Positions 2,891 to 63,899 of a stretch of DNA of 64,000 nt are shown here, in pieces (position 1 is the stretch's first letter; each line of letters begins with the position of its first letter). Source of the DNA: Eunapius fragilis (taxonomy: Eukaryota > Porifera > Demospongiae > Spongillida > Spongillidae); assembly GCA_963681505.1 (NCBI GenBank), contig OY811980.1, forward strand, positions 6,829,572-6,893,571, read 5' to 3'. The notes beneath the pieces are model-generated. The model worked only from the letters and a program-made list of their open reading frames with translations, had not been told where the DNA came from and searched no databases. A program made the position numbers and the translations under genes.

Positions 2891-4459
2891 TCACTGGCTG
2901 GTGCCATAGATTTCATACAAAGCAGTCATGACGGCCTGAATGCGTTTACAGCACAGTTCTTCCTGGTTGCAAACATCAACTATTGGCTCAGGGTAGTCCA
3001 CACCAATGATGCAGCCTGCCTCCTGCTGGAGGTACAGAGGAGCATTCCACGGCTGGTGGATGTATTCAGCAGGAAAGCTCTGGAGCTCTGGTACATAGGT
3101 CTTGATGTACTTGCCATCCATGTCCACCTGCTTACCTATCACACATGGATTGTAGCCCTCCACCTGGTTACAAAAGAACCCACTGCAAGAGCTCTGCATC
3201 CAGGACACAGCGGCCAGAGGTTGCTCATAGTCTAACGTAAACTCCTGGAAAAACTCCTTCCCCAACACCCAGGACAGCCACAAGTAGCCTCGTGTCAAGA
3301 AGACGGCAATGCTCTGACGGCCCAAGAAGTGTGCCCAACCTTCTTGGCGACACTGGCGAATGACTGCATCAATCCAAGGGAAGCCAGTCCGACCTTGGCG
3401 CCATGCTTCAAGGTATTGTGAATTATCATCCCAGGGAAGCTGGATACATAGTGGATTGCCACTCATCTGGTCAAAGTTTGGAGTGAAGTATCCCATAAGG
3501 AAGGCAAACTCTCTAAGAAGAAGGTTTTTGGCCACATCCTTGAATAAGGTCTGACTTGCATTGGAGACAGATGAAAATTGCTTGATATGGCTGAACTGCT
3601 GACGCACAGAGAGACATCCAAACCGTATGTAAGGACTGAGAGAGTCTTTGTTCATTAGCCACTCAATGGGATCACCTGACAGAGAGGTACGGTGAGAGCA
3701 GAACTTGGACAGCCTGCTCAGAGCTTCAGTTTCCCCGCCCACCCAGTGATTGGTGTACAACTTTTCATTTGGTCCAAACCCAAGACTCTGCAGGGTTGGT
3801 ATCTCACCTTCGGCTTCATCCACGGTACCATTGTTCTCGTTCGATATCAATATCATAAGGGGGGTTGGTTCCGGAACGGGTTCTTGCGGGCATCCCATCT
3901 GGGGTAGCAATCGACGAAATTCCTTGTACGAAAGCGGCACGTGACCGCCGTTGCAAGCAATGACTTGGTTAGGGTTGTAAAGCGTTTGGGAATAGAAGGG
4001 AACAGCCTCTATGCCGTGTTCTGTCGCGATACGTTGGATAACCTCGTCTAGTTTCTTCGACTCGTAGCTTATTTGTGAAGCCTGAAAAGTGAGTCTTTGC
4101 ACGTTCCATTTACGGTAAATTTCTGGCAAGATGGCTGTTGGTTGACCAACGAACACGTTGAGACGAGTCTGATACGGTTTCTTCTGGAGTTTGTTATCCA
4201 GGTCGTGGAGAGATTCGATGAGGAAACGCCACACGTTGACGGACGGCCCGTTTTTATAACTTGCGTTGAACCATGGGTCTACGATAAAAATGGCCTTGAA
4301 TCTTAGTCCGCTGGTGACCGCGCAGTTGAAAGCTGGGTTGTCGTGTAGGCGGAGAGAGTCCATACGGAACCAATGTACTACAGTAGGCGGATCAGCACAC
4401 TTCTGATGCTCGTGTTGGAGTAACCGCTGAGGCACCTCGGACGGCACAGCGAACGACAT
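2891..4459 (-). CDS. Cryptochrome/photolyase-family flavoprotein, copy 1 (intronless)
   Basis: Single open frame of 522 residues with no intron. The N-terminal alpha/beta (antenna-type) domain opens with VVHWFRMDSLRLHDNP, and the FAD-binding helical domain contains TGFPWIDAVIRQCRQEGW. The electron-transfer Trp triad of the family is present: W in LPWDDN, W in LSWVLG, and W420 in SWMQSS. Two histidines needed for repair in (6-4) photolyases are replaced (F378 and Q382 in the HFLGRQ motif). The residue that faces flavin N5, Asn in photolyases, is Ala416. These features favour a blue-light receptor over a repair enzyme; this is inference from family knowledge. It resembles the animal cryptochrome/(6-4) photolyase clade. 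There is no long C-terminal tail. It is transcribed away from the second copy at 9999. I chose the first ATG, since its 5' flank is also conserved in the fragment at 7609. Confidence 0.93.
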   Translation of the reverse strand: MSFAVPSEVPQRLLQHEHQKCADPPTVVHWFRMDSLRLHDNPAFNCAVTSGLRFKAIFIVDPWFNASYKNGPSVNVWRFLIESLHDLDNKLQKKPYQTRLNVFVGQPTAILPEIYRKWNVQRLTFQASQISYESKKLDEVIQRIATEHGIEAVPFYSQTLYNPNQVIACNGGHVPLSYKEFRRLLPQMGCPQEPVPEPTPLMILISNENNGTVDEAEGEIPTLQSLGFGPNEKLYTNHWVGGETEALSRLSKFCSHRTSLSGDPIEWLMNKDSLSPYIRFGCLSVRQQFSHIKQFSSVSNASQTLFKDVAKNLLLREFAFLMGYFTPNFDQMSGNPLCIQLPWDDNSQYLEAWRQGRTGFPWIDAVIRQCRQEGWAHFLGRQSIAVFLTRGYLWLSWVLGKEFFQEFTLDYEQPLAAVSWMQSSCSGFFCNQVEGYNPCVIGKQVDMDGKYIKTYVPELQSFPAEYIHQPWNAPLYLQQEAGCIIGVDYPEPIVDVCNQEELCCKRIQAVMTALYEIYGTSQ

Positions 4460-4500
4460 CTTTGCAGTGCAGGAACTAAAAACTGAAACGGCTATTTTTA
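4460..4500 (-). promoter_or_regulatory. Cryptochrome 5' flank, duplicated at 7609
   Basis: The 40 bases upstream of the cryptochrome ATG (reading 'aatagccgtttcagttttta' on the minus strand) recur nearly unchanged in front of the fragment ATG at 7647, showing that 5' UTR or promoter DNA was copied together with the coding start. No TATA element is obvious. Confidence 0.5.
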
Positions 4501-5059
4501 TTTTAATGAGTGTTTTTCACGCGTAGAGGTGATTCAGGTTATATAAGAAATTGTCATACCTGGGCGGGGCCATAGGTTGAACATTAGACCCCCTTGAAAA
4601 CATTACGTAACCCTTAGCGGTCCATTCAAAAGTGAAACTAGGCCTACGCCTTGAAATGTTGAAATGGTTATCGACCCTATTAGCAATGCAGCCTAACAAC
4701 CACAAGACCTCTGGAATGCAAGGCTGTACGTGAAAACGCTACATTTATACAAGGGGACAAAACGATACCATAGAAGTATTACCACTTTTCGTGTCTGAAG
4801 AAATTTTCGATCACGTGCCTCTGCCGGTGGAGCAGCAGCGCTTCGAAGACACCTACCATTTTTTGACCCTCGTCTGAGCTTTTCACGAAGTGGAACAAAC
4901 AGCAGCCAAAGAGTGAATATGAAGGTAGGGCAGGCTGGGTTTATAGTCCAGGCAATTAGCGCCTTTAAATAAAAAAATTTACTAGCGATAGACCGGGAAA
5001 ATTAATTTCATGAAATTCATTGGTTAATTCAACCACGTAACCTAGAGATAAAATACATA

Positions 5060-7353: not shown

Positions 7354-7608
7354 GGTACTAAATCATGACACTGTGTGTTGGATAGAGCATGATGATGTGT
7401 TTGACTTCTGGGTACTGTGCCTCTTGTAAGCCGGGCCTTCTTTATTGATGTATCTGCATCAGATTCTGAAACTGATATCTGCCCTTGTTGTTGCTTGCAT
7501 GCGAATAGCACGCATTGTCAGTTTTTATATCAGGCATGTGTTCAATAGCATGCATTGTCACTTTGTATATCAAGTATGTGTTCAATCGCACTCTTTAATA
7601 AATAAGTA

Positions 7609-7851
7609 AAATAGCCGTTTCAGTTTTTAGTTCCTGCACTGCAAAGATGTCATTTGCTGTGCCATCCGAGGTGCCTCAGCGGTTACTCCAACATGAGCAT
7701 CAGAAGTGTGCTGATCCGCCTACTGTAGTACATTGGTTCCGTATGGACTCTCTCCGCCTACACGACAACCCAGCCTTAACTACGCAGTCACCAGCGGACT
7801 AAGATTCAAGGCCATTTTCATCGTAGACCTGTGGTTCAACGCCAGTTATTA
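7609..7851 (+). pseudogene. Truncated cryptochrome 5' fragment, inverted copy of the 4459 gene start
   Basis: About 38 bp of 5' flank plus roughly the first 68 codons of cryptochrome copy 1 (ATG at 7647), in the opposite orientation to that gene. It shares the N-terminal extension that copy 2 lacks, so it derives from copy 1. One base is missing near 7777 (after the LRLHDNPA segment), which shifts the frame. Homology stops at about 7851, where the sequence passes straight into inverted thiolase-gene DNA. It cannot make a cryptochrome. Confidence 0.9.
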
Positions 7852-9818: not shown

Positions 9819-9998
9819 CATGGCTGCCGCTCTTCCCGGGATGACACTGCAACCTCTCCATAGATAAGACTACAGTATTAAAATAATAGTCTCACATTAT
9901 CTGAAGCGTATTATAGAAATCCTTGGATATTCTAGGAGATTTCCCGGCGAACGATGGGTAATGCATCGTGCGTATAACTTTTTTTATTTATTAAAAAG

Positions 9999-11543
9999 AT
10001 GTCGCTTGCTGTACCAACGCAGTGTTTGAAGCCGTCTGAAAACCCGGCAACCGTCGTACATTGGTTCCGTATGGACTCTCTCCGCCTACACGACAACCCA
10101 GCTTTCAACTGCGCGGTCACCAGTGGACTAAGATTCAAGGCCATTTTTATCGTAGACCCATGGTTCAACGCAAGTTATAAAAACGGGCCGTCCGTCAACG
10201 TATGGCGTTTCCTCATCGAATCTCTCCACGACCTGGATAAAAAACTCCAGATGAAACCGTATCAGACTCGTCTCAACGTGTTCGTTGGTCAACCAACAGC
10301 CATCTTGCCCGAAATTTACCGTAAATGGAACGTGCAAAGACTCACTTTTCAGGCTTCACAAATAAGCTACGAGTCGAAGGAACACGACGAGGTTATCCAA
10401 CGTATCGCGACAGAACACGGCATAAAGGCTGTTCCCTTCTATTCTCACACGCTGTACAATCCTAATGACATTTTCATCTCTAACGGTGGGCGGGTACCTG
10501 TCTCGTACAAGGAATTTCGTCGACTCCTGCCAATAATAGGATGCCCCCAAGAACCCATTCCAGAACCAAATGCACTTTCTGTTTTGATGTCCAGTGGGAC
10601 CTTGAATAGCACGGATGAAGCTGAAGGTGAGATACCAACCCTGCAGAGTCTTGGGTTTGGACCAAGTGAAAAGTTGTACACCAATCACTGGGTGGGCGGG
10701 GGAAATGAAGCTCTGAGCAGGCTGTCCAAGTTCTGCTCTCACCGTACTTCTCTGTCAGGTGATCCCATTACGTGGCTAATGAACAAGGACTCTCTCAGTC
10801 CTTACATTCGGTTTGGATGTCTCTCTGTGCGTCAGCTGTTCAGCCATATCAAGCAGTTTGCTTCCATATCCCCGAAGGGACATGCATTGTTCGAGGAGTT
10901 GACCAAAAACCTTCTTCTTAGAGAGTTTGCCTTCCTTATGGGATACTTCACTCCAAACTTTGACCAGATGAGTGGCAATCCACTATGTATCCAGCTTCCC
11001 TGGGATGATAATCCACAATACCTTGAAGCATGGCGCCAAGGTCGGACTGGCTTCCCTTGGATTGATGCAGTCATTCGCCAGTGTCGCCAAGAAGGTTGGG
11101 CACACTTCTTGGGCCGTCAGAGCATTGCCGTCTTCTTGACACGAGGCTACTTGTGGCTGTCCTGGGTGTTGGGGAAGGAGTTTTTCCAGGAGTTTATGTT
11201 AGACTTTGAACAACCTCTCTCCTCTGTGTGCTGGATGCAGAGCTCTTGCAGTGGGTTCTTTTGTAACCAGATGGAGGGCTACAATCCATGTGTGATAGGC
11301 AAGCAGGTGGACATGGATGGCCAGTACATCAAGACCTATGTACCAGAGCTCCAGAGCTTTCCTGCTGAATACATCCACCAGCCGTGGAAGGCTCCTCTGT
11401 ACCTCCAGCAGGAAGCAGGCTGCATCATTGGTGTGGACTACCCTGAGCCAGTAGTTGATGTTTGCAACCAGGAGGAACTGTGCTGTAAACGCATTCAAGC
11501 CATCATGACTGCTTTGTATGAAATCTACGGCACTGGCCAGTGA
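9999..11543 (+). CDS. Cryptochrome/photolyase-family flavoprotein, copy 2 (intronless)
   Basis: Single open frame of 514 residues, paralogue of the gene at 2891-4459 in opposite orientation. It shares the Trp triad, the HFLGRQ motif in place of the (6-4) photolyase histidines, and the same C-terminus. The N-terminus differs (MSLAVPTQCLKPSENPATVV, shorter), as does the stretch of about residues 160-205. The flavin N5-facing position is Ser408 (Ala in copy 1). Long blocks elsewhere are almost identical between the copies, suggesting gene conversion. Likely light sensing rather than repair, by family knowledge; spectral properties cannot be read from sequence. The start is the first ATG, 24 bases after an upstream ATG in another frame. 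Confidence 0.93.
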   Translation: MSLAVPTQCLKPSENPATVVHWFRMDSLRLHDNPAFNCAVTSGLRFKAIFIVDPWFNASYKNGPSVNVWRFLIESLHDLDKKLQMKPYQTRLNVFVGQPTAILPEIYRKWNVQRLTFQASQISYESKEHDEVIQRIATEHGIKAVPFYSHTLYNPNDIFISNGGRVPVSYKEFRRLLPIIGCPQEPIPEPNALSVLMSSGTLNSTDEAEGEIPTLQSLGFGPSEKLYTNHWVGGGNEALSRLSKFCSHRTSLSGDPITWLMNKDSLSPYIRFGCLSVRQLFSHIKQFASISPKGHALFEELTKNLLLREFAFLMGYFTPNFDQMSGNPLCIQLPWDDNPQYLEAWRQGRTGFPWIDAVIRQCRQEGWAHFLGRQSIAVFLTRGYLWLSWVLGKEFFQEFMLDFEQPLSSVCWMQSSCSGFFCNQMEGYNPCVIGKQVDMDGQYIKTYVPELQSFPAEYIHQPWKAPLYLQQEAGCIIGVDYPEPVVDVCNQEELCCKRIQAIMTALYEIYGTGQ

Positions 11544-19762: not shown

Positions 19763-22700
19763 ACAATATGCATTTAATGTGTGCGTGTGCCTCTTTTTAG
19801 ACATTTGTAGAGACAACAGATGCTGAATGTCAACCAGAATGGTGGGTACATTCCAACTTGTCGCATCCCTACCCTCACACCCACCCTCATCACCTACCCT
19901 CATCACCTACTCTCACCACCTACCCTCCTCATCTACCCTCACACCTACCCTCATCACCTACTTTCACCACCTACTCTCACACCTACCCTCACCACCTACC
20001 CTCACCACCTACTCTCACCACCTACTCTCACACCTACCCTCACCACCTCACCTCCTACACTTACCCTCACCACCTACCCTCACCACCTACTCTCACCACC
20101 TACCCTCACACCTACCCTCATCACCTACCTTCACCACCTACCCTCACCACCTACCCTCACACCTACCCTCACACCCACCCTCATCACCTACCCTCATCAC
20201 CTACCCTCATCACCTCACCTCCTACACCTCTTAAGGATGAGTCACCACAACGTTGCTGTGCAGTACACTCCGCAAAGCTTGTCTGGGGAGGAGGCAGCGA
20301 GGCTTCAGGAGGGAGAGGGAATGGCGACATTTCTAAAGAAATTTTGTCCCAGGTGCAGTGTGTGGTAGGATAGGAGCTTTATCTGTGTGTATGTGATATG
20401 TGTGTGTGTGTGTGTGTGTGTGAGTGTGTGGGTATGTGGGTGTTGCATGGTGTGTGTTTACATGTGTGTGTGTGCATTGCAGGGTTGAGCTCAGCCTGCA
20501 ACAGAATGAGATCATGAACCTGTTTGTTGATGACTACAAGAACCTGCCTGACACTAACTGGATCACAGGGAACAAGTCAGACAGCAGCCTGAATGTGAGT
20601 GTCCCTTTGCCCCACACCAGCGGCAGCTGTTGGAGCACTTTGTGGCCTGTCCCCTTTCATAGGAGTACCAGTCATTTACCGACTGGCAGTTCTGTGAGAA
20701 CAAGATGATAACCTATATTGACTGGCACCCCACCCACAAAGGTTGGTGGTGATTTGGATATGTGGGACTTTTACCACTACTAGTACTTCATCTCTGCTGG
20801 CACGTGTATTTACATACCTTTATATAACCACTTACATCATGCCCATAACCTCATCCTCTCTCATCACTCCGTTGTTATCACACCACCTCCATCACCATCG
20901 CCTCCTCACCTCGTCATCCCTCTCTCACCTCACCACCCTCACTTCACCACCCTCACCTCACCACCCTCACCTCACCACCCTCACCTCGCCACTCTCACCT
21001 CACCATCACGGCATCACCTACCTCACTTTACCGTCCTCATTCCATCACTTTCCTCACTTCACCATCACCTCCCTCCATCTTTACTCTCCCTCCCCACCAT
21101 TACCTTAACCCTCCCACCCTCACAGGTATAATAGCAGTGTCTTGTGGACACAAGCATTCCTTTGATGAAGGGGTGGAGCTACACGCAAAGACCAATGTCT
21201 CCCTACACCTGATCCTTCTGTGGAGTTTTGCAGACCCCATACATCCTCAGGTATAGCAGACCCCATACATCCTCAGGTATAGCAGACCCCCATACATCCT
21301 CAGGTATAGCAGACCCCCATACATCCTCAGGTATAGCAGACCCCCATACATCCTCAGGTATAGCAGACCCCATACATCCTCAGGTATAGCAGACCCCATA
21401 CATCCTCAGGTATAGCAGACCCCATACATCCTCAGGTATAGCAGACCCCATACATCCTCAGGTATAGCAGACCCCCATACATCCTCAGGTATAGCAGACC
21501 CCATACATCCTCAGGTATAGCAGACCCCATACATCCTCAGGTATAGCAGACCCCCATACATCCTCAGGTATAGCAGACCCCCATACATCCTCAGGTATAG
21601 CAGACCCCATACATCCTCAGGTATAGCAGACCCCATACATCCTCAGGTATAGCAGACCCCATACATCCTCAGGTATAGCAGACCCCATACATCCTCAGGT
21701 ATAGCAGACCCCCATACATCCTCAGGTATAGCAGACCCCCATACATCCTCAGGTATAGCAGACCCCATACATCCTCAGGTATAGCAGGCCCCATACATCC
21801 TCAGGTATAGCAGACCCCATACATCCTCAGGTATAGCAGACCCCATACATCCTCAGGTATAGCAGACCCCATACATCCTCAGGTATAGCAGACCCCCATA
21901 CATCCTCAGGTATAGCAGACCCCCATACATCCTCAGGTATAGCAGACCCCATACATCCTCAGGTATAGCAGACCCCCATACATCCTCAGGTATAAGTTGT
22001 ATTGGAGCACATGAGCGCAATGCAGGCTTTATCAATGTTTAGCTCTGTCTCACCTGATATAGTGGTCTGTGCCACTGTTGGTTAAGGCTATGAAAATGGA
22101 TGTGACAGCTTTGGCATAGAGTTGCGTACATAACCATACAACTAGTATACCCACCTGATCAATAAAATAAACTACGGCTGATCCTTGGACTTATCTCTAT
22201 ATTTCATACTGACCACACCCCTACCTCCACACCACTTAGCGGGTTGCAAATGTGTACTTAATCAACGTTATCTGTATGTACAGCAACAACTTTGCTTCTC
22301 TGAAGTAATGAAGTCTGCATATACATGCATGTGTGCACCTGCCTTCCCTCTCTCCTTTCCCTTCCCCCCCCCCCCTCCCACCTACCCTCCCTCTCACCCA
22401 CCTCTCATTACTCTTCATTTTCAGCTCTTTCTGGAAGCCCCTGATGATGTCATGTGTTTCAAGTTCAATCCTTCAAACCCAAATCAGATTGTTGGTGGAT
22501 GTGTTAATGGGCAGGTGAGGGTATGGGGGGAAATCCCTAGGTTTCCGATTTAATCTGTTGGCATGGGGTTTCCCCCTCTCCATGCCCCCCCCCCCCCCCC
22601 CTTCTAGATTGTTCTGTGGGACATTGATGAGTACGAGGACAGGATACAGGTCAACAAGGGACAGGAGGGGGAGAGAACAGTGCCTGCCCATTTGGTGACC

Positions 22701-24024
22701 CTCCCACACATCAATGCGCACAGACGTCATTTGCACATATGCGCACACGTACACATACACATGTACACATACACACGTACACATACACATGTGCACATGC
22801 ACATGTACACATACACACGTACACATGCACATGTGCACATGCACATGTACACGTGCACACGTACACATACACATATACACACACATGTACACGTGCACAC
22901 ATACACATACACATATACACATGTACACGTGCACACATACACATACACATATACACACACATGTACACGTACACATACGTATGACACATTTACATAACAC
23001 ACACCTCGCATGTATAACCAGGCCATCTTTAACATGGAGCCTAAGCCTGACCATGCACCAATAGTACGTCACTTTGCCCTGTCCTCCATCGAGCAAGGCC
23101 ACAAGATGGCTGTGGTAGACCTCCTCTGGGTCCCAGACCACATAGAGGTAGTGCCCAGGCCATCAACCATGGTCTCCCTCCATTCCTTCTTACCGTATTT
23201 TACTTGAACAGATCTGTTCGAAGACTGCAAGTGTCCTGGACAATGCAAGAGCCAGGTGCAACCAGCTGATCACGGGCAGCATTGATGGGTATGTACCATA
23301 GTCTGGGTGTGCAGCATTGATGGGTATGTACGTGAGGTGCTGTAGTCTGGGTGTGCAGCATTGATGGGTATGTACGTGAGGTGCCATAGTCTGGGTGTGC
23401 AGCATTGATGGGTATGTACGTGAGGTGCCGTAGTCTGGGTGTGCAGCATTGATGGGTATGTACGTGAGGTGCCGTAGTCTGGGTGTGCAGCATTGATGGC
23501 TATGTACGTGAGGTGCCATAGTCTGGGTGTGCAGCATTGATGGGTATGTACGTGAGGTGCCGTAGTCTGGGTGTGCAGCATTGATGGGTATGTACGTGAG
23601 GTGCCATAGTCTGGGTGTGCAGCATTGATGGGTATGTACGTGAGGTGCCATAGTCTGGGTGTGCAGCATTGATGGGTATGTACGTGAGGTGCCGTAGTCT
23701 GGGTGTGCAGCATTGATGGGTATGTACGTGAGGTGCCGTAGTCTGGGTGTGCAGCATTGATGGGTATGTACGTGAGGTGCCATAGTCTGGGTGTGCAGCA
23801 TTGATGGGTATGTACGTGAGGTGCCGTAGTCTGGGTGTCGCAACTTTGCCTGGCTATGGATTTACGTTGATGCATGCATGACATGGTGGCAGAGTTTAAC
23901 CTCAAGTGGAGGGCTGGGTATTTCCTAACTGATGATGATGTGGACTGAAAGGGGTACCATTTTTGTTGTGATCTCGTGTGGATGCTGTGGCATACTGCAC
24001 CATTGCCAGGAAGTCAACGTGTGT

Positions 24025-24106
<82 letters not shown>

Positions 24107-24337
24107 AGCACCATCATGTTCTGGGACATAAGGCAGCCTTCCCAGCGACGTCCCACTAATGCCAGCAAGGCTATTATTGACACAGGCAACCCTTATGGCT
24201 ACTTGGACCTTCAGTGGAAACCATTTCTGAAGGTCCGTACAGTACACATACACACACCTATGCACATGTACACACACTTATGCATGCTTGCAAAATGCAT
24301 TTATACATATGTACTGCACACACATAACGTACATACA

Positions 24338-24381
<44 letters not shown>

Positions 24382-27300
24382 ACAACACACATGTATGTGC
24401 TGGTGATGTCCCATAACTACTAGGTTCAGCTCCCTCGTCCTGATAACCCTGGTCCCTTCTCTGTCACCCGACTCAGCATCAGAGAGAAGCAGCAAGTTCG
24501 AGGTAATGGGAAGTGGTGACCTTGGGGATAGTGGGAAGTGGTGACCTTGGGGATAGTGGGAAGTGGTGACCTTGGGGATAGTGGGAAGTGGTGACCTTGA
24601 GGATAGTGGGAAGTGGTGACCTTGGGGATAGTGGGAAGTGGAGGTGACCTGGGGATAGTAGGAAGTGGAGGTGACCTGGGGATAGTGGGAAGTGGAGGTG
24701 ACCTGGGGATAGTGGGAAGTGGAGATGACCTTGGGGATAGTGGGAAGTGGAGGTGACCTGGGGATAGTAGGAAGTGGAGGTGACCTGGGGATAGTGGGAA
24801 GTGGAGGTGACCTTGGGGATAGTGGGAAGGTGATGCATCTTGTCATGATCTGATGTCAACATGGCCATCGCTGTGCTGGCTTATGCTAACAGTTAGGACC
24901 CAGGAGGCAGCCATCACAGAGGACCTTGAAGGAAAGCCAATTGAAGGTGCATCAACCAAGTACTATGTTGGGACTGAGGTATATTCCTTGTCTGATGAGA
25001 GGGGGAGGAAGGGGATGAGAGGGGGTGGGAAGGGGTGGGAAGGGTGAGGGAGGGGGTGAGAGGGGGGTGAGGGGGCAGAGAGGGAGCGGAGGGGGTGAGA
25101 GGGGGCAGGAAGAGGGTGAGAGAGGGTGGGAGAGTGCATAATTCAGAAGAGAGTATCATGAACTAGCGATTCTTTATTTCAGGATGGTGAGATTGTCTGT
25201 GGGGACTGGGTACCAGTAAAGGATTCAGAGAGTGGAAAGCTAGTGTGTAAGTGTGACTGGGGACTAGATCTGGTCACTTGTACACTCACACGCTCACACA
25301 GCATCAAAGCCGGAGTTCTATTCCAGGGCCCACTGTGGCTGTGTGTGCTGTGTTGAAAGGTCACCTTTCTTCAGGGACATCATCCTTTCTGTTGGAGGGT
25401 GGAACTTTGCTATATGGAAAGAGGGTGCCAATGTGTGTACACCTGCACTCCCCCTCCACACCTACACTCCCCTCCACACCTACACTCCCCCTCCACACCT
25501 ACACTCCCCTCCACACTTACACCCCCTCCACACCTACACTCCCCTCCACACCTACACTCCCCTCCACACCTACACTCCCCTCCACACCTACACTCCCCTC
25601 CACACCTACACTCCCTCCACACCTACACTCCTCCTCCACACCTACACCCCCTCCACACCTACACCCCCTCCACACCTACACTCCCCTCCACACCTACACC
25701 CCCTCCACACCTACACTCCCCTCCACACCTACACTCCCCTCCACACCTACACTCCCCTCCACACCTACACTCCTCCTCCACACCTACACCCCCTCCACAC
25801 CTACACTTCCCTCCACACCTACACTCCCCTCCACACCTACACTCCCCTCCACACCTACACTCCCCCTCCACACCTACACTCCCCTCCACACCTACACTCC
25901 CCTCCACACCTACACTCCCCTCCACACCTACACTCCTCCTCCACACCTACACCCCCTCCACACCTACACTTCCCTCCACACCTACACTCCCCTCCACACC
26001 TACACTCCCCTCCACACCTACACTCCCCCTCCACACCTACACTCCCCCTCCACACCTACACTCCACCTCCATACCTACACTCCCCCCACACCTACACCCC
26101 TCCACACCTACACTCCCCCTCAACACCTACACTCCCCTACCTCATCCCAATAGATGTGTTTTAATTCCTCCCTGACTAGAGCAATGCTCTCATGAAGTCC
26201 TACAACTTTCCCATTGTCCTGACTGCAGGGACGTGGTCAAAAACAAGGCCAGGTGACCCCCCTTATGAATAGCCGAGCAATCAGCAATGTTTTTATATGA
26301 ACCACACACACAACCCATACATTTGACATGCACACAACCATTACATAACTGACACAACAGGTGTGTTCTTTATTGCAAAGGAGAATGGAACCCTTGACGT
26401 ATGGGACCTCCTTGACAAGTAAGGGGACTAGTTTAGTGCGTATCGTCTAAACTGACATGGACATTGGCGCAGATCCCATGAGCCTTTCCTGACCCAAAAT
26501 ATCTGCTCTGTTTCAATAACATCAATTGCTCCTTACTCACTTTCTAGTAAGCCTTCCCTCCTGCTGCCCTATCCCCCATCTCCTCCTCCTCCCCATCCAC
26601 CTTCTCCACCTTACAGGTCAGCAGGTGATGTTGGCTCTTGGAGACGCAGCTGGTACCTTGCACATATTCCAGCTGCCGTGGAGCCTTAGCAACCCCTCCA
26701 GCAAGGAGGTAAGCAAGGGGAAGGAAAGGGATACAGGGGAAGAGAGGGGAAGGAAAGGGATACAGGGGAAGAGAGGGGAAGGAAAGGGATACAGGGGAAG
26801 AGAGGGGAAGGAAAGGGATACAGGGGAAGAGAGGGGAAGGAAAAGGATACAGGGGAAGAGAGGGGAAGGAAAGGGATACAGGGGAAGAGAGGGGAAGGAA
26901 AGGGATACAGGGGAAGAGAGGGGAAGGAAAGGGATACAGGTGAAGAGATGGGAAGGAAAGGGATACAGGGGAAGAGAGGGGAAGGAAAGGGATACAGGGG
27001 AAGAGAGGGGAAGGAAAGGGATACAGGGGAAGAGAGGGGAAGGAAAGGGATACAGGGGAAGGAAAGGGATACAGGGGAAGAGAGGGGAAGGAAAGGGATA
27101 CAGGGGAAGAGAGGGGAAGGAAAGGGATACAGGGGAAGGAAAGGGATACAGGGGAAGAGAGGGGAAGGAAAGGGATACAGGGGAAGGAAAGGGATACAGG
27201 GGAAGAGAGGGGAAGGAAAGGGATACAGGGGAAGAGAGGGGAAGGAAAGGGATACAGGGGAAGAGAGGGGAAGGAAAGGGATACAGGGGAAGAGAGGGGA

Positions 27301-29770: not shown

Positions 29771-32700
29771 CACACCAATGCACTGAACAGGGGGGGCCAG
29801 ATCAGATAACTTCCAATTAGAGGGGTGACATCATCACGGAAATAAATCTTCTGTGGGATTGAGTATATAGTATATGATATATGGTATATGATATATATGG
29901 TATATGATATATATGGTATATGGTATATGGTATATAAATAATCCTCACAGCAGGAAATATGCTTATCACAACACAACGTCAATCACTGCTCCTCTTCAGA
30001 CCAGCACCTTGCCTCATTCCCCATTGACCTGCTCTCTCCTTATAAGGGAACTGTCCTCTCTCTGGTTAAAGAAAGTCCTATCCTCCCCCCCCCCCCCCCC
30101 CCACACACACACTTAGGCAAGAAGTCAAGGTGCATGTAATGCCCCACCTACTTAACTCACCCACCCCCATGACATGTTGTACCACCAATCACAATAGGAG
30201 GAGTAATGTCTGTCTAATTATGTGTGCAAATGACAGAAATGTGCATGTATGCTTATGCACACATGTACATGTAACACGTAAGCATGCACACGTACACGTA
30301 ACATATGAGCATGCACACGTACATGTAACATGTGAGCATGCACACGTACATGTAACATGTGAGCATGCACATGTACATGTAACATATGAGCATGCACACG
30401 TACATGTAACATATGAGCATGCACACGTACATGTAACATATGAGCATGCACATGTACATGTAACACGTGAGCATGCACACGTACATGTAACATATGAGCA
30501 TGCACGCATACACGTAACATGTGAGCATGCACACGTACACGTAACATGTGAGCATGCATACGTACATGTATGCTATACACACACATGTATGTATGCTAAT
30601 ACATGTATACAATACTGGAACCAGACAAGAGGTCATTTTATTCTCCCTGTTTTAGACCAGTGTTTCGTAATGACACGCTCATCCTGGCAGTCACCACTGA
30701 CAGCAGTATAATACAAGTCCCTTCGGAGGTACATGCACCTTCTGCATGGTATCATATGCTGTGTACTGTTGTAATATTATAAGTACTGTTATATGTGTTT
30801 GCCCCTATATTCTAAGTACTGTTGTATGTGTTTGCCCCTATATTATAAGTACTCTTGTATGTGTTTGCCCCTATATTCTAAGTACTGTTGTATGTGTTTG
30901 CCCCTATATTATAAGTACTGTTGTATGTGTTTGCCTCTATATTCTAAGTACTGTTGTATGTGTTTGCCATAATATATTATAAGTACTCTTGTATGTGTTT
31001 CTCCTCACACATGATGTGTAGCAGTCTCATACGGCACTCTCCTTGTGCACCTTTTTAGATTGAAATTGTTAATGGTACTGAAAATGGAAGTGTAGGTATC
31101 CACACTGTGGCCGCTGGTAAGACAAATATACGGTTCAACTACACTTCATTTATGGAAGAAGACCAAGATCTGATAGTCAGGTCAGTCCACCAAGCTACAG
31201 GGATTACTTGTCTTGTGAAAGAAGGACCTACTTGCTTACGTACCCCACCGACATCTCCCCCCCGGTACCCCATGTATATGACCACACCTTCTCCTTATAA
31301 GGCTGGATCTTGTGATTGGTGAAGTTGAAGTGGTCCACTCCAAGGTCATTGTCATCATTACTGCTGTCATTGGATGGCTCTATTTTTTTGCCTGGTCCAT
31401 CTCGTTCTACCCTCAGGTAGTGTTGCTCCACTAACACACGCACATGCTCTCACTTTACATCTGTCCATTGTCTTTCTCAATATGTAGATTATTCTCAACT
31501 GCTATCGTCGTAGTGTGGTGGGCCTTAGCTTTGACTTCATAGCTCTCAACATCACTGGCTTCACCGCATATTCTGTCTTCAACTGTGCCCTCTTCTGGTC
31601 CCCAGCCATTCAGGTATGTATATGTGTGTACATGTTGTACCATGTGTGTGTGTACATGTGTGTGTATATGGGACAGTGTCTAGCAAAATCACCCTTCTGG
31701 GTAGTTTTTCAAGTTTTCAAATTTTTTGATTTTCCATGAACTCCAAAGCGCTTCTATCAAATGGTCCTTACGCATCCTATACCATCATAAAATTATTAGG
31801 CACTGAATTTATAATTAGCCATTCATTTTGAGCAAGCGTTACTTTTCTTTTGCTTGTCCTGGAAAATTTGGAATTGAAGTATCACAAGGGTGATTTTGCT
31901 GGACACTGTCCCATATATGTATACCTGTGTCTGTATGTATATGTATACATGTGTACGTATGTGTGTGTGGTGTAGTATGTTGATGATTGTGCCCGTGCTT
32001 CCTTTCGTGCAGGGTCAATACCTCAATAAGCACCCTGGTGGGGTGATCCCTGTTCAGGCCAATGATGTGGCCTTCTCTCTTCATGCAGCTGCTGCCACAC
32101 TTGTGGTGATTGGGCAGTGTCTGGTGCTCAAGGTACATGCTACACTTGGTGCTCGGTGTACACCCACATGCTACACTTGGTGCTCTGGGTACACCTACAC
32201 ATCACACTTGGTGCTGTTACACTTCGTTCATCTTTTGCACCCTGTGATGCCTATGTGTAAGCATGGGATCGTGCATAGGACAGGCATATTTTCAGATATT
32301 TGCAACTGCTTGGTTGTGAAATCTTTTGTGCAATCAGGATCCAGATCTTTGGTGATCACGTGTGACACTTTTTATGTAGCATCTCTTTGTTATTTTCCCT
32401 CATCACAGCGTGAGAAGCAAAGGGTGTCCATAGTTGCCATAATCATCCTTGTGGTCCTATGGCTCTTTGTCTTCGTATCTCTGTTCGTGGCTGTTGGTAA
32501 GAAGCTCCAATGGCTGGAGTTCCTCTATTTCTTCTCCTACGTGAAGTTGGCAGTGACCCTCATCAAGTATATTCCACAGGTGAGGGTGTTACAGCATCAT
32601 GTCCTATTTTGGTATGAGGGGGGATATGGTGGATGAGGCTACTATTTTGTGGGTGTAACCTCTCTCCTCCCACTCCCTCAGGCATACCTTAACTTCAGGC

Positions 32701-33229
32701 GCAAGAGCACAGAAGGCTGGAGCATTGGGAGCATCCTGCTGGACTTCACGGGAGGAGCCCTCAGCATACTTCAGATGTTCCTCCTGTCCTACAACTATGG
32801 TATGTGTGGCCTGTGTGCTACCATTGTGGGTGAGGGAGGGAGAGGGAGGGGAAGGGGGAGGGGGAGAGATTGAGAGAGGGGGAGTGATTGAGAGAAAGAT
32901 ATACAGAGAGAGATAGAGATATACAGATAGAGATAGAGAGAGATAGATAGAGATATGTACCCATATCCTGGTCATGCATGATTTGTTTGTATATATGCCA
33001 CATTCTCTTAGATGACTGGAGGTCGACCTTTGGTGACCCCACTAAGTTTGGACTAGGGCTATTCTCCATCCTCTTCGACATACTCTTTATCTTCCAGCAC
33101 TATGTCTGTTACCGTAAGTCTGACAAGAGCACCAAAGAGGAGGAGGAGAAGCAACTGTTGTCTGACTCTTTAGACCAACATACAAGCAGGACAATGAAAG
33201 TGTTGCAGTTTTTGGGTCTTGTCAATTAA
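29275..33229 (+). CDS. CTNS: Cystinosin, copy A
   Basis: Exons 30656-30728, 31059-31180, 31302-31416, 31488-31613, 32013-32132, 32409-32579, 32682-32799 and 33012-33229 join in phase. Upstream, a signal-peptide exon starts at 29275 ([18 protein letters not shown]) and a luminal exon ends at 29501 ([12 protein letters not shown]); the exact end of exon 1 is unsettled. Total about 400 residues (human 367). It is the lysosomal cystine/H+ exporter: a glycosylated luminal domain, seven membrane segments and two PQ-loop motifs (WSISFYPQ and KYIPQAYLNF). The STEGWSIG and [10 protein letters not shown] segments are typical. The C-terminal tail lacks the GYDQL sorting signal of the human protein but has EEKQLL, an acidic dileucine motif. 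It differs from copy B at only a few residues. Confidence 0.93.
30235..30590. repeat. 26/27-bp CA/TG-rich minisatellite, CTNS copy A intron
   Basis: About eleven units of 'catgcacacgtacatgtaac' plus 'atgtgag'. The same array, slightly shorter, is in copy B at 34345-34640. Confidence 0.92.
30767..31005. repeat. 33-bp minisatellite, CTNS copy A intron
   Basis: About seven units of 'gtatgtgtttgcccctatat' plus '(t)ctaagtactgtt'. Copy B has about two more units at 34835-35130, so the array has changed length since the duplication. Confidence 0.93.
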
Positions 33230-33748: not shown

Positions 33749-36700
33749 ATGACATTTAAGTGTTTGGCTCTTTGGTTGTTGACGTTGAGCGTGGCTGAAG
33801 TTAGAAGTTGCAGCTATGAAAGTCCTCAAGGCAGGCTTGTACTCCATTTGATTCGTTAGCTCAGTGCATGCATGGTCCTTTTATTGTTCTCCGCAGCGGG
33901 ACGGTACCTCCTGTGCTTACAGCCGGTGAGTACAATCGAGGTTGGCCAGAACGCAAGCCTACTCTTCAATCTCCAGTAGGCTGCCCCATTTGCACCTCCT
34001 CGAGGGCATCGACCCATGCATATAACTATCCACTATACTGGGGATGGGATTCTCTGTTACATAGGTAGTATACTAGTAAGTATAGTAATCACTGCTTCTC
34101 TTCAGACCAGCACCTTGCCTCATTCCCCATTGACCTGCTCTCTCCTTATAAGGGAACTGTCCTCTCTCTGGTTAAAGAAAGTCCTATCCTCCCCCCCCCC
34201 TCCCCTCCACACACTTAGGCAAGAAGTCAAGGTGCATGTAATGCCCCACATACTTAACTCACCCACCCCCGTGACGTGTTGTACCATCAATCACAATAGG
34301 AGGAGCTTAATGTCTGTCTAATTATGTGTGCAAATGACAGAAATGTGCATGTATGCTTATGCACACATGTACATGTAACACGTAAGCATGCACATGTACA
34401 CGTAACATGTGAGCATGCACACATACATGTAACACGTGAGCATGCACACGTACATGTAACACGTGAGCATGCACACGTACATGTAACACGTGAGCATGCA
34501 CACGTACATGTAACATGTGAGCATGCACACGTACATGTAACGTGAGCATGCACACGTACATGTAACATGTGAGCATGCACACGTACACGTAACATGTGAG
34601 CATGCATACGTACATGTATGCTATACACACACATGTATGTATGCTAATACATGTATACAATACTGGAACCAGACAAGAGGCTTGCATCGTCATTTTATTC
34701 TCCCTGTTTTAGACCAGTGTTTTGTAATGACACGCTCATCCTGGCAGTCACCACTGACAGCAGTATAATACAAGTCCCTTCGGAGGTACATGCACCTTCT
34801 GCATGGTATCATATGCTGTGTACTGTTGTAATATTATAAGTACTGTTATATGTGTTTGCCCCTATATTCTAAGTACTGTTGTATGTGTTTGCCCCTATAT
34901 TATAAGTACTGTTGTATGTGTTTGCCCCTATATTCTAAGTACTGTTGTATGTGTTTGCCCCTATATTATAAGTACTCTTGTATGTGTTTGCCCCTATATT
35001 CTAAGTACTGTTGTATGTGTTTGCCCCTATATTATAAGTACTGTTGTATGTGTTTGCCTCTATATTCTAAGTACTGTTGTATGTGTTTGCCATTATATAT
35101 TATAAGTACTGTTGTATGTGTTTCTCCTCACACATGATGTGTAGCAGTCTCATACGGCACTCTCCTTGTGCACCTTTTTAGATTGAAATTGTTAATGGTA
35201 CTGAAAATGGAAGTGTAGGTATCCACACTGTGGCCGCTGGTAAGACAAATATACGGTTCAACTACACTTCATTTATGGAAGAAGACCAAGATCTGATAGT
35301 CAGGTCAGTCCACCAAGCTACAGGGATTACTTGTCTTGTGAAAGAAGGACCTACTTGCTTACGTACCCCACCGACATCTCCCCCTCGGTACCCCATGTAT
35401 ATGACCACACCTTCTCCTTATAAGGCTGGATCTTGTGATTGGTGAAGTTGAAGTGGTCCACTCCAAGGTCATTGTCATCATTACTGCTGTCATTGGATGG
35501 CTCTATTTTTTTGCCTGGTCCATCTCGTTCTACCCTCAGGTAGCGTTGCTCCACTAACACACGCACATGCTCTCACTTTACATATGTCCATTGTCTTTCT
35601 CAATATGTAGATTATTCTCAACTGCTATCGTCGTAGTGTGGTGGGCCTTAGCTTTGACTACATAGCTCTCAACATCACTGGCTTCACTGCATATTCTGTC
35701 TTCAACTGTGCCCTCTTCTGGTCCCCAGCCATTCAGGTATGTATATGTGTGTACATGTTGTACCATGTGTGTGTGTACATGTGTGTGTATATGGGACAGT
35801 GTCTAGCAAAATCACCCTTCTGGGTAGTTTTTCAAGTTTTCAATTTTTTTGATTTTCCATGAACTCCAAAGTGCTTCTATCAAATGGTCCTTACGCATCC
35901 TAAATCGGACTATCCATCATAAAATTATTAGGCACTGAATTTATAATTAGCCATACATAGCAAGCATTACCTTTCTTTTGCTTGTACTGGAAAATTTGGA
36001 ATTGAAGTATCACAAGGGTGATTTTGCTGGACACTGTCCCATATACGTATACCTGTGTCTGTATGTATATGTATACATGTGTACGTATGTGTGTGTGGTG
36101 TAGTATGTTGATGATTGTGCCTGTGCTTCCTTTCGTGCAGGGTCAATACCTCAATAAGCACCCTGGTGGGGTGATCCCTGTTCAGGCCAATGATGTGGCC
36201 TTCTCTCTTCATGCAGCTGCTGCCACACTTGTGGTGATTGGGCAGTGTCTGGTGCTCAAGGTACATGCTACACTTGGTGCTCGGTGTACACCCACATGCT
36301 ACACTTGGTGCTCTGGGTACACCTGCACATCGCACTTGGTGCTGTTACACTTTGTTCATCTTTTGCACCCTGTGATGCCTATGCAAGCATGGAATCGTGC
36401 ATAGGACCAGGCATATTTTCAGATATTTGATATTTTGCAACTGCTTGGTTGTGAAATCTTTTGTGCAATCAGGATCCAGATCTTTGGTGATCACGTGTGA
36501 CACTTTTTATGTAGCATCTCTTTGTTATTTTCCCTCATCACAGCGTGAGAAGCAAAGGGTGTCCATAGTTGCCATAATCATCCTTGTGGTCCTATGGCTC
36601 TTTGTCTTCGTATCTCTGTTCGTGGCTGTTGGTAAGAAGCTCCAATGGCTGGAGTTCCTCTATTTCTTCTCCTACGTGAAGTTGGCAGTGACCCTCATCA

Positions 36701-37384
36701 AGTATATTCCACAGGTGAGGGTATTACAGCATCATGTCCTATTTTGGTATGAGGGGGATATGGCTGATGAGGCTACTATTTTGTGGGTGTAACCTCTCTC
36801 CTCCCACTCCCTCAGGCATACCTTAACTTCAGGCGCAAGAGCACAGAAGGCTGGAGCATTGGGAATGTCCTGCTGGACTTCACGGGAGGAGCCCTCAGCA
36901 TACTTCAGATGTTCCTCCTGTCCTACAACTATGGTATGTGTGGCTTGTGTGCTACCATTGTGGGTTAGGGAGAGAGAGGGAGGGGAAGGGGGAGAGGGAG
37001 GGGAAGGGGGAGGGGGAGAGGGAGGGGAAGGGGAGGGGGAGAGATTGAGAGAGGGGGAGTGATTGAGAGAGAGATATACAGATAGAGATAGAGAGAGATA
37101 GATAGAGATATGTACCCATATCCTGGTCATGCATGATTTGTTTGTATATATGTCACATTCTCTTAGATGACTGGAGGTCGACCTTTGGTGACCCCACTAA
37201 GTTTGGACTAGGGTTATTCTCCATCCTCTTCGACATACTCTTTATCTTCCAGCACTATGTCTGTTACCGTAAGTCTGACAAGAGCACCAAAGAGGAGGAG
37301 GAGAAGCAACTGTTGTCTGACTCTTTAGACCAACATACAAGCAGGACAATGAAAGTGTTGCAGTTTTTGGGTCTTGTCAATTAA
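33749..37384 (+). CDS. CTNS: Cystinosin, copy B
   Basis: All exons of copy A are present with intact splice sites and frame: 34713-34785, 35182-35303, 35425-35539, 35611-35736, 36141-36260, 36544-36714, 36816-36933, 37167-37384, plus the signal-peptide exon from 33749 and the luminal exon ending at 33975. Seen differences from copy A include GLSFDY for GLSFDF in the PQ-loop region and IGNV for IGSI in the STEGWSIG segment. The luminal exon reads GQNAS for GQNTS. Both copies therefore look functional as lysosomal cystine exporters. The luminal exon donor is GTAGGC here against GTAAGC in copy A. A truncated MRPL55 exon lies head-to-head upstream. Confidence 0.93.
34345..34640. repeat. 26/27-bp CA/TG-rich minisatellite, CTNS copy B intron
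   Basis: Counterpart of 30235-30590 in the duplicated cystinosin gene, about two units shorter and with different unit variants. Confidence 0.92.
34835..35130. repeat. 33-bp minisatellite, CTNS copy B intron
   Basis: Counterpart of 30767-31005; about nine units instead of seven. Confidence 0.92.
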
Positions 37385-58409: not shown

Positions 58410-59739
58410 TGAGAGAGGAAAGAAAGAGAGAGAGGAGAGGTCATCCATGTAGGCTGTGTACCTAGTGTGTACCTTAGACTTAAACAGCCTGTTATATATG
58501 TCAAACAAAGTCTGAATGGACACTCCAACCCGGTGTAGCGTAGTGTGAACAAAATCCACCCTCCAGTGCTGTTGGCAGCTGTACTTCTCTAGCACACTGA
58601 TAATGTGCTCTAAATAGAATAGGTAGTAGCATAATCAAAGAGATAGAGAGAGAGAGAAAGGAGAGGGCAACACACCCAATGGGAAGAACCGTTCACTGTG
58701 TATATACAGCTGTCCCAACTGCATAAGTTTTGCTTGCATACTCTGCATCTGGTTCTCTACCGACTGCTTCTTGGTGAGGCTAACCTCTGTCAGAAGGCAA
58801 AAGGATATAAGACCACATGATATGATTTACAGAACCTCTTATAGTAGCTTCACACACACACATCCACCAGGTCACCATGGCAGCACACATTGTGCAATGT
58901 CATCTTGACATTAGTTAACAGGTGTGTGGGGTGTGCACACTATCTTCTGCTCCTCCCCCTCCCAATATGGACCAACATGACGTAATCTGCCTCCTCCCCC
59001 TCCCATATGGACCAACATGACGTAATCTGCCTCCTCCCCTTCCCATATGGACCAGCATGATGTAATCTGCCTCCTCCCCCTCCCATATGGACCAACATGA
59101 TGTAATCTGCCTCCTCCCCTTCCCATATGGACCAGCATGACGTAATCTGCCTCCTCCCCCTCCCATATGGACCAACATGATGTAATCTGCCTCCTCCCCC
59201 TCCCATATGGACCAGCATGACGTAATCTGCCTCCTCCCCCTCCCATATGGACCAACATGGCAACTGGACAAAGAATAGTCTAATCACCACATTCAAATTA
59301 ATAGTATAATCCCCCTGGCTTGCGTCCTACATCTAGCAATAAATTAAACATTTTGAATACAGAACCCTTGCAGCTAGTAATCATTACATAACATACACTT
59401 GGCTGTAGTAGTGTGCACGTCAGCATCATGTGAGTGTGGGACAACACATATGGCAACTTCCTAGATGCTGTCCCCCACTTTAATGCACCATACATATGCA
59501 AGTGAGATGTGTATATGTATGTGTGCATGTATGTGTATGTATGTATGTATGTATGTATGTATGTATGTATGTATGTATGTATGTATGTATGTATGTGTGT
59601 ATGCATGCCTGTATGTATGTATGTATGTATGTATGTATGTATGTATGTATGTATGTATGTATGTATGTATGTATGTATGTATGTATGTATGTATGTATGT
59701 ATGTATGTATGTATGTATGTATGTATGTATGTATGTATG

Positions 59740-59770
<31 letters not shown>

Positions 59771-62700: not shown

Positions 62701-63899
62701 CAACAACATGGTAAGATACACATTCAACAACAAACATTCAGCTTCAACAACATGGTAAGCTGCACATTCAATAATATGGTAAGCTATACATTCAGGTTCA
62801 ATGTTATGTCAATAATTCTTTTGAGCTATTATGATACACCACAAATCAAATACAAAGGAGACAGGACAGCCTGCCAATGTATGTGTGGACATAAGCAAGG
62901 CCGGAAGGTCAGGGAGGGTAAGGTGTGATGGTGTGATGTGTGAACATCTGGGCATGATGGTGTGATGTGTGAACATCTGGGCATGAGGGTGTGATGTGTG
63001 AACATCTGGGCATGATGGTGCGATGTGTGAACATCTGGGCATGATTGTGTGAAGTGTGAACATCTAGGCATGATGGTTTGATGTGAGGATGGTGGCATTA
63101 CTAGTACACACAACAAAGCAGTGGCATGCAGCCATGTGTCACCTTGGAGATATCCATCAGCTCTTTCGTGAGCATGTCAACAGCTGCCCGTGCATTGGCT
63201 GTTTGAGGTCGAAGGGCCCTGAGAGTCTCCACTATGTTCAGCTGTATGCGTGCCACCTTCATAGCAAAGAGACACATATATCACACCACAAACTCCACAC
63301 CTCCATCTTAGCACTACCCACCTCCATCTTAGCACTACCTCACCTCCATCTTGTCTTCCAGCTCATGCAGGAACTCTCCTATGGTGCTACTGCTGGTTGC
63401 TAGGTTACAGCTTTTGGCACACATGACTGCCCTGGATATGTACTCTACCCTCTGATCAAGCGTCAGGTCAGAACTGTGGAGGAGGGAGATAGAGGTGACA
63501 GTGTACATGTGTATACATGTGTACATGCTATGCATGTGTGGACATGTGTGGACATGTGTGGACATTGTGTACATGTGTACATGCTATGCATGTGTGGACA
63601 TTGTGTACATGTGTGGACATGTGTACAAGTGTGTGTACATGTGTGGACATGTGTGTGTACATGATGTGTGTGTGGTGCAACACATGTACCTCTGTATATT
63701 TGCCAGCTGGTCCAGTATCCTGGCAGCTGCTGAGTAGTTCTTGTTCTTCTCGTAGTATCTCCACAGAAGGTTGAGGAACAGAAGATTATCCTGCTGCATT
63801 GGCATATTGCCTCACCACAAGGCCAACATTTCCAACCAATCAGCTAACCTGTGACGTCGCCATGTGTTTGAGGAACGGCTCAATGTAGGGAGTTCTGAC
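58001..63899 (-). CDS. NUP155: Nucleoporin Nup155, C-terminal part (5' exons beyond window)
   Basis: Nine minus-strand exons join in phase to 339 residues plus stop: 63849-63899, 63690-63793, 63344-63473, 63143-63256, 60759-60879, 58676-58786, 58473-58609, 58262-58359, 58001-58154. Family landmarks are [61 protein letters not shown] and [17 protein letters not shown]. This is the C-terminal alpha-solenoid of an inner-ring scaffold nucleoporin of the nuclear pore (whole protein about 1,390 residues in human). The intron at 58360-58472 has a 29-base G run, and the two introns flanking the 60759-60879 exon consist largely of satellite arrays. Confidence 0.96.
58158..58214. repeat. (GT)n at NUP155 last acceptor
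   Basis: On the gene (minus) strand a CA array of about 57 bp runs into the acceptor 'cacacaag' of the last exon (58154). The intron is only 107 bp and is more than half microsatellite. Confidence 0.95.
58381..58409. repeat. Poly(G) tract, 29 G
   Basis: Uninterrupted G run (C run on the gene strand) filling the middle of a 113-bp NUP155 intron, 22 bp from the acceptor. Confidence 0.95.
58940..59262. repeat. ~40-bp minisatellite in NUP155 intron
   Basis: Eight units of 'ccatatggaccaacatgacg' plus 'taatctgcctcctccccctc'. Confidence 0.95.
59517..59770. repeat. (ATGT)n microsatellite, ~250 bp
   Basis: Tetranucleotide array with a short interruption near 59597-59612. Long open frames across it on both strands are artefacts. 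Confidence 0.97.
60117..60740. repeat. 25-bp minisatellite in NUP155 intron
   Basis: About 25 units of 'gagggtagggagtgaccaat' plus 'gggga'. On the gene strand it starts within about 20 bases of the donor of exon 60759-60879. Confidence 0.97.
60884..62258 (-). repeat. 30-bp satellite carrying acceptor-like units in NUP155 intron
   Basis: About 45 units of 'gggaaaggtagtactgactg' plus 'catgtgtatca'. On the gene strand every unit reads 'agtactacctttccctgata' then 'cacatgcag'. This closely resembles the real acceptor of the adjoining exon (agtactacctttcctcactctgcag, ending at 60880), as if the array grew from the 3' splice site. Confidence 0.95.
62930..63082. repeat. 29-bp minisatellite, five units, NUP155 intron
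   Basis: Units of 'gatggtgtgatgtgtgaaca' plus 'tctgggcat' between about 62930 and 63082. Confidence 0.92.
63500..63665. repeat. TG-rich 'acatgtgtggac' repeat in NUP155 intron
   Basis: Irregular array of 'gtgtggacatgtgtacatgc' type between exons 63344-63473 and 63690-63793, ending about 25 bp from the donor of the latter. Confidence 0.9.

Follow-up and report, generated by a model that had tools for sequence, protein, structure and literature searches.

Donor-copying minisatellites at exon ends of DNAI3 and other conserved genes of the sponge Eunapius fragilis and the probable use of the exon-proximal 5' splice site

Tandem duplication of a segment containing AGGT can create pairs of donor and acceptor sites, and the human gene IFI6 (6-16, G1P3) is said, in work reportedly by Turri, Cuin and Porter from 1995 (NAR 23:1854), to carry a minisatellite that provides multiple splice donors. 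In IFI6, splicing reportedly also starts from donors in downstream repeat units, so that three mRNA species arise (PMC4526556). A 2024 study by Duan et al. describes tandem dual-specific sites in human UBC and VCX3A (PMC10809524); an AGGT site of the UBC tandem reportedly can serve as donor or as acceptor or stay unused, and expansion of such repeats is argued there to be probably less damaging, as the surplus can be removed by splicing. In potato RdRp, an intron is reported to have been gained by tandem duplication around AGGT (PMC4974935), and the ratchet points of recursive splicing are described as a juxtaposed acceptor and donor (PMC8605326).

In the present study, we analyzed a stretch of 64,000 nucleotides of chromosome 10 of the freshwater sponge Eunapius fragilis (odEunFrag1.1, C10:6829572-6893571; hereafter the window), in which two introns of DNAI3 and one of NUP155 begin with tandem copies of their own 5' splice site (Table 1). 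The joined DNAI3 exon translations matched the DNAI3 chain of PDB 8j07 (k1), which we take to be the human protein, at an E-value of 1.2e-108. Introns were placed by reading the sequence under the guidance of protein alignments, 17 in DNAI3 and 7 in NUP155, and the shortest of these 24 is 55 bp. The DNAI3 set is partial, with stretches near 22720-23020 and 25240-26630 lying outside the placed introns, and its exon and intron numbers are those of our own model, exon 9 being the ninth there. Codon usage proved too weak a guide for finding exons de novo.

Table 1. Positions in the window of the donor-copying arrays and of the exons and introns that carry them (a slash marks a splice junction)
Feature	Position	Strand	Details
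DNAI3 exon 9	21126..21250	+	Open reading frame aligned with its neighbours to 8j07; starts after CCCTCACAG, ends ...GCAGACCCCATACATCCTCAG
DNAI3 intron 9	21251..22424	+	Acceptor TTTTCAG at 22424
Array 1, minisatellite with 26/27-bp unit, 29 copies of exon end and donor	21230..21994	+	Tandem Repeats Finder
First donor of array 1, GTATAG	21251..21256	+	Keeps the conserved reading frame
28 later donors of array 1	21277..21995	+	GTATAGCAG in 27 of them, GTATAAGTT in the last (21990)
DNAI3 exon 10	22425..22514	+	LFLEAPDD...; alignment to 8j07
Array 2, second donor-copying DNAI3 array	23276..23838	+	13 bp of exon end GCAGCATTGATGG with GTATGTAC, 13 copies
DNAI3 intron with array 2	23289..24108	+	12th of 17 placed introns
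Short NUP155 donor-copying array	63298..63352	-	AAGATGGAG/GTGAGG, /GTGGGT, /GTGTGG; intron 63343-63257

The earlier note on this DNA had placed the end of exon 9 at 21250, and this is borne out by the alignment to 8j07, which runs without a gap through the junction WSFADPIHPQ/LFLEAPDD (sponge ...LLWSFADPIHPQ/LFLEAPDD..., DNAI3 of 8j07 ...LFWSFSDPIHPQLMLESPDD...) at phase 0. The exact join of exons 9 and 10 would read TCAG followed by CTCTTTCTGG. Extension past the first donor yields ...HPQV and then a stop. The same note had described the repeat unit as 20 bases of exon end with GTATAG, present in about 29 near-identical copies in a row; this is the same 26-bp unit as the one delimited here, in which the exon suffix exactly common to the unit is 21 bp, GCAGACCCCATACATCCTCAG, followed by GTATA, and TCAG/GTATA was counted 29 times. 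These donors lie from 21251 to 21990, and the first 28 read GTATAGCAG; the last, GTATAAGTT, runs on into unique intron sequence, and the first 21 bp of array 1 are coding exon. The spacing between donors is 26 bp in 17 cases and 27 bp in 11, and since no doubled spacing occurs, there is no intervening copy that lacks a donor. The 28 units between donors comprise 16 identical 26-mers, 11 27-mers with an extra C and one single-base variant. Every GT and every TCAG is intact, giving a donor decay of 0/29. The start of exon 9 (21126-21137) reads GTATAATAGCAG after CACAG and resembles the CAG/GTATAGCAG of the array; the likeness of this donor-like site to the array is probably a coincidence of coding sequence.

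A 25-mer core of the unit, allowing up to three mismatches, had at least 28 matches in the 219-Mb genome, all of those listed lying inside array 1, and its reversed control had none among the matches listed for the same genome, which excludes chance as the source of array 1. As the unit was reported nowhere else in the genome, array 1 was probably born in place. The TCAG/GTATA motif also occurs at 62251, in a different array.

We propose that a tandem duplication across the junction of exon 9 and intron 9 of sponge DNAI3 seeded a minisatellite, which would then have expanded into the intron, so that the exon end and 5' splice site now stand 29 times in a row at the start of the intron. The functional mRNA would be made by joining the exon-proximal donor at 21251 to the acceptor at 22424, and the 28 downstream donors would act mostly as neutral intron sequence, as would their counterparts on other genes. 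We give this combination of an origin by duplication, use of the first donor and near-neutrality of the later donors, each part being deduced from sequence, a probability of roughly 0.7. The conserved DNAI3 frame requires that nothing stand between exons 9 and 10 in the mRNA, and at each array in the window it is the conserved protein that calls for the first donor (DPIHPQ/LFLEAP and GSIDG/TIMFWDIR in DNAI3, KME/VARIQL in NUP155). The low level of donor decay (0/29 in array 1 and 1/13 in array 2) favours this combined reading. Against use of the first donor stands what is known of competing 5' splice sites in mammals, among which the site nearest to the acceptor is often favoured; such a preference would select the last copy and kill the message.

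Each later donor is preceded by TCAG and is thus also a potential 3' splice site, which raises a different account of how the frame could be kept. Donor choice may be loose, with the leftover GT...AG units removed by a second splice within the array that restores the same junction; because each copy is AG/GT, surplus copies could in principle be spliced out afterwards. The earlier note mentions neither this AG/GT form nor the IFI6 precedent. Each unit ends in TCAG and the next starts with GTATAG (GTATAA after the last), and those array copies that were scored as 3' splice sites reached 4.2 and 5.7, within the range of the 24 placed acceptors (-1.7 to 10.3), while tandem use of dual-specific AGGT sites is documented in human UBC (PMC10809524). 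As donors, a first and a middle copy scored 7.3 with the 9-mer position weight matrix, and the last copy 5.9. A branch-point motif was sought by eye in the unit and no obvious one was found, and the other two arrays of the window speak against this account. The donors of array 2 are GG/GT rather than AG/GT, which makes exact removal impossible, and as exact re-splicing is unavailable there, first-donor use must suffice or the product is lost. In the NUP155 array of three donors, the surplus of about 44 bp is smaller than the shortest placed intron of 55 bp. We regard the removal of surplus units by a second splice as rather unlikely. If it did occur, splicing would be invariant to copy number and repeats could expand without limit on essential genes; that introns of exons ending in AG form such a class, with many natural examples in the sponge genome, appears doubtful on this analysis.

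The alignment to 8j07 crosses the junction of array 2 at GSIDG/TIMFWDIR, and one of its 13 donors, at 23500, is altered from GT to CT. As judged by eye, splicing from the first donor of array 2 to a TGCAG internal to the unit would lengthen the protein in frame by IDG (9 nt). At the NUP155 array, Nup155 of PDB 7eyf aligns across KME/VARIQL, and the three donors in an intron of 87 bp apparently represent an early stage of the same process. The NUP155 region also holds a 44-copy array of a 31-bp unit (60891-62262, minus strand), which ends 11 bp before an acceptor and the unit of which includes part of the polypyrimidine stretch.

The same anatomy was found outside the window. A search of the genome of 218.9 Mb (24 contigs) was made for arrays in which three perfect donor octamers recur at intervals of 14 to 44 bp. 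The 5' flanks of 22 donor-motif arrays were fetched; these 22 are not a random sample of the genome and comprise 8 of the 13 places among the matches listed for AGGTANGT, all on C1, and 14 of the 15 arrays among those listed for AGGTGAGT. In two of the 22, the exon at the first copy was identified by homology. The QARS1 exon ...VKEAVERE/ matched Pfam PF04558 at 9.5e-7 and chain A of PDB 4ye8 at 4.2e-6 over residues 4-44 of 46, the alignment ending 2 residues short of the donor, and the GEN1 exon ...DMNLRE/ matched 5t9j at 1.3e-16 over residues 1-87 of 97, ending 10 residues short (L030 and L049, respectively). Donor-copying arrays thus follow five homology-identified exons, two of DNAI3 and one each of NUP155, QARS1 and GEN1, and in these the exact exon suffix common to the unit is 21, 13, 9, 6 and 7 bp.

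Six more of the 22 (L033, L037, L038, L042 and L034/L035; the first donor of L038, GTAAGT, was picked by hand) were judged by eye to be likely exon ends, as the frame is open and the acceptor plausible. The suffix common to the unit is 7 bp in L033 and 3 bp in L042 and L037, in both of which it is GAG only. No Pfam match above the cut-off was obtained for L033, L034, L037 or L042. For the 14 other flanks, neither homology nor inspection by eye supported an exon, L029 being ambiguous; these 14 include L050, the flank of which falls short of the array start, and L039 and L047 are perhaps short likewise. L034 and L035 (C1, 14.107 and 14.167 Mb) are very similar sibling copies of a gene, possibly derived from a transposon, and in both copies an array that carries donors lies at a candidate exon end. 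The unit GTATGTTGTCAAACATGTACAGGTAAGC is present at both C1:17146135 and C1:10833222, 6 Mb apart, which indicates that some minisatellites are dispersed and not born in place.

This recurrence bears on the suggestion that the later donors form a leaky or regulated on/off switch, producing transcripts with a premature stop in proportion to array length. The premise of the earlier note, that any donor but the first adds an immediate stop, agrees with our reading-frame check, in which each DNAI3 extension reads GTA TAG, and in human IFI6 downstream repeat units reportedly do serve as donors, with three mRNA species (PMC4526556). Nevertheless, the sequence examined gives no pointer to regulation, and the anatomy recurs on unrelated conserved genes (QARS1, NUP155, GEN1 and a second DNAI3 intron), of which QARS1 and NUP155 are housekeeping genes. 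In QARS1 (C1:10255650-10256250, minus strand), the first unit is 36 bp long and, as read by eye, in frame and free of stops (VCAAIIVCMVRE), so that later donors could encode an insertion instead of a stop. A switch at DNAI3 would thus be quite unlikely. The presence of similar repeats on other conserved genes suggests that splicing probably ignores all but the first donor, and it is most likely that such repeats arise as by-products of a genome rich in minisatellites and are tolerated, the exon-proximal donor being the one normally used.

The recurrence is also relevant to the quality of the assembly. Since the ultra-low-input (ULI) library method includes amplification, the exact copy number of array 1 could be distorted. 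The HiFi libraries of E. fragilis were made by this method, and the primary assembly is reported to have a k-mer completeness of 55.5% and a BUSCO completeness of 60% (PMC12616128). However, the assembly QV is given as 60.4 at approximately 118x coverage (PMC12616128), the anatomy is the same at several loci whose units are unrelated, and unit variants are interspersed in array 1; an assembly or amplification artefact is very improbable. The same source records an RNA run for E. fragilis, ERR11641155 (PMC12616128).

We also considered RNA structure and U1 binding. The one stretch of 201 nt that was folded covers the first units (21220-21420); its shuffles were more stable (z +2.96), and an explanation by hairpins was dropped on this ground. 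Weak folding would leave the sites accessible, and this and the 29 intact donor motifs would suit an array kept for its tandem U1-binding sites, which may mark the exon or suppress premature polyadenylation. The high identity of the units could equally be explained by recent expansion and the support for a role of U1 is drawn from sequence, and we consider retention for this purpose highly unlikely.

The seeding of such arrays may be indifferent to donors, and the genome-wide counts fit this. Triples of AGGTANGT gave 2537 matches versus 7205 for the reversed motif, triples of AGGTGAGT 570 versus 916, and single motifs, counted in 200 kb of random loci, gave 34 versus 52 for AGGTANGT and 7 versus 10 for AGGTGAGT; the donor-motif counts do not exceed their reversed controls. 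Triple counts are of matches and not of arrays, such that long arrays weigh more, and the reversed controls are imperfect, (TGGA)n microsatellites probably inflating that of AGGTANGT. If a reasonable share of strong donor octamers are real donors, as we assume, the presence of some arrays on real exon ends is what indifferent seeding combined with tolerance would predict. The load of minisatellites is high, with, by one and the same definition, 36 arrays in the 64-kb window and 50 in 200 kb of random loci.

Within the window, three arrays straddle an exon end among the 24 placed introns versus 0.35 to 0.72 expected under uniform seeding (P 0.006 to 0.036); these P values are optimistic because the window was picked for this very feature, and the higher expectation (0.72) rests on 18 arrays counted by hand. 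These figures leave room for some preference of arrays for exon ends. In the window, arrays also tended to lie towards the 5' end of introns: the Fisher test gave P 7e-6 for 11 first arrays and 8e-4 once a guard of 40 bp was set at the acceptor. Without the three straddling arrays this tendency faded to P 0.027, or 0.134 with the guard, so that a general bias is not claimed. The inputs to this test were entered by hand, with an offset of -14 for DNAI3 intron 12 (TRF +10; 13 exonic bases counted), and did not include the (TATG)n array at 59514-59769. On the acceptor side, triples of TTTTCAGG gave 8 matches versus 22 for the control and those of CTYYACAG 2738 versus 1798, most of the matches listed for the latter belonging to one family on C1; these counts are seemingly set by the base composition of arrays, and an asymmetry between donors and acceptors is not claimed.

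Two further features of the window were recorded. Repeat arrays at 30260-33000 and 34364-37110 match in series and order, suggesting a segmental duplication, and two long intact open reading frames (2891-4516, minus strand, and 9978-11543, plus strand) encode very similar proteins, presumably of the cryptochrome/photolyase type, with a fragment at 7602-7802.

Experiments on competition between splice sites usually employ two or three artificial donors. On its conserved genes, the sponge genome offers a natural series that runs from 3 to 29 near-equal donors, in AG/GT and GG/GT forms, and the reading frames of those genes tell which donor must win. The series could show directly whether the first donor prevails by its position or whether wrong choices are mended by re-splicing, and it bears on how minisatellites spread through genes without breaking them. 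It is also a warning to gene predictors and RNA mappers, for which such junctions are ambiguous.

Regarding the known systems, DNAI3 resembles IFI6 in that the repeat unit extends across the boundary of exon and intron and includes the donor (21 bp of exon and GTATA). It differs in that IFI6 forms different isoforms from its donors, whereas the later donors of DNAI3, which has 29 copies, add an immediate stop, and in that the same anatomy follows four more homology-identified exons of the sponge genome; no report of recurrent donor-copying minisatellites in one genome was found in titles and abstract starts among the matches listed. As in UBC and VCX3A, AG/GT stands at the unit boundaries, in 29/29 cases in array 1 but not in array 2 (GG/GT). 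The UBC repeats are coding and in frame with a unit that is a multiple of three, whereas the DNAI3 units of 26/27 bp are mostly intronic and contain stops, and dual use of DNAI3 copies as donor and acceptor, with which the matrix score is compatible, is putative. In contrast to intron gain around AGGT, an existing intron appears to have been extended in DNAI3 with no new intron position apparent: the acceptor that matches the protein, at 22424, lies 430 bp past array 1, and no new intron was found between two copies. Array 1 shares a juxtaposed AG/GT with the ratchet points of stepwise intron removal, and its spacing of 26/27 bp is shorter than any intron placed here. The principle is shared with IFI6 and UBC, and what is new is the copy number, the stop-containing extension and the recurrence on conserved genes.
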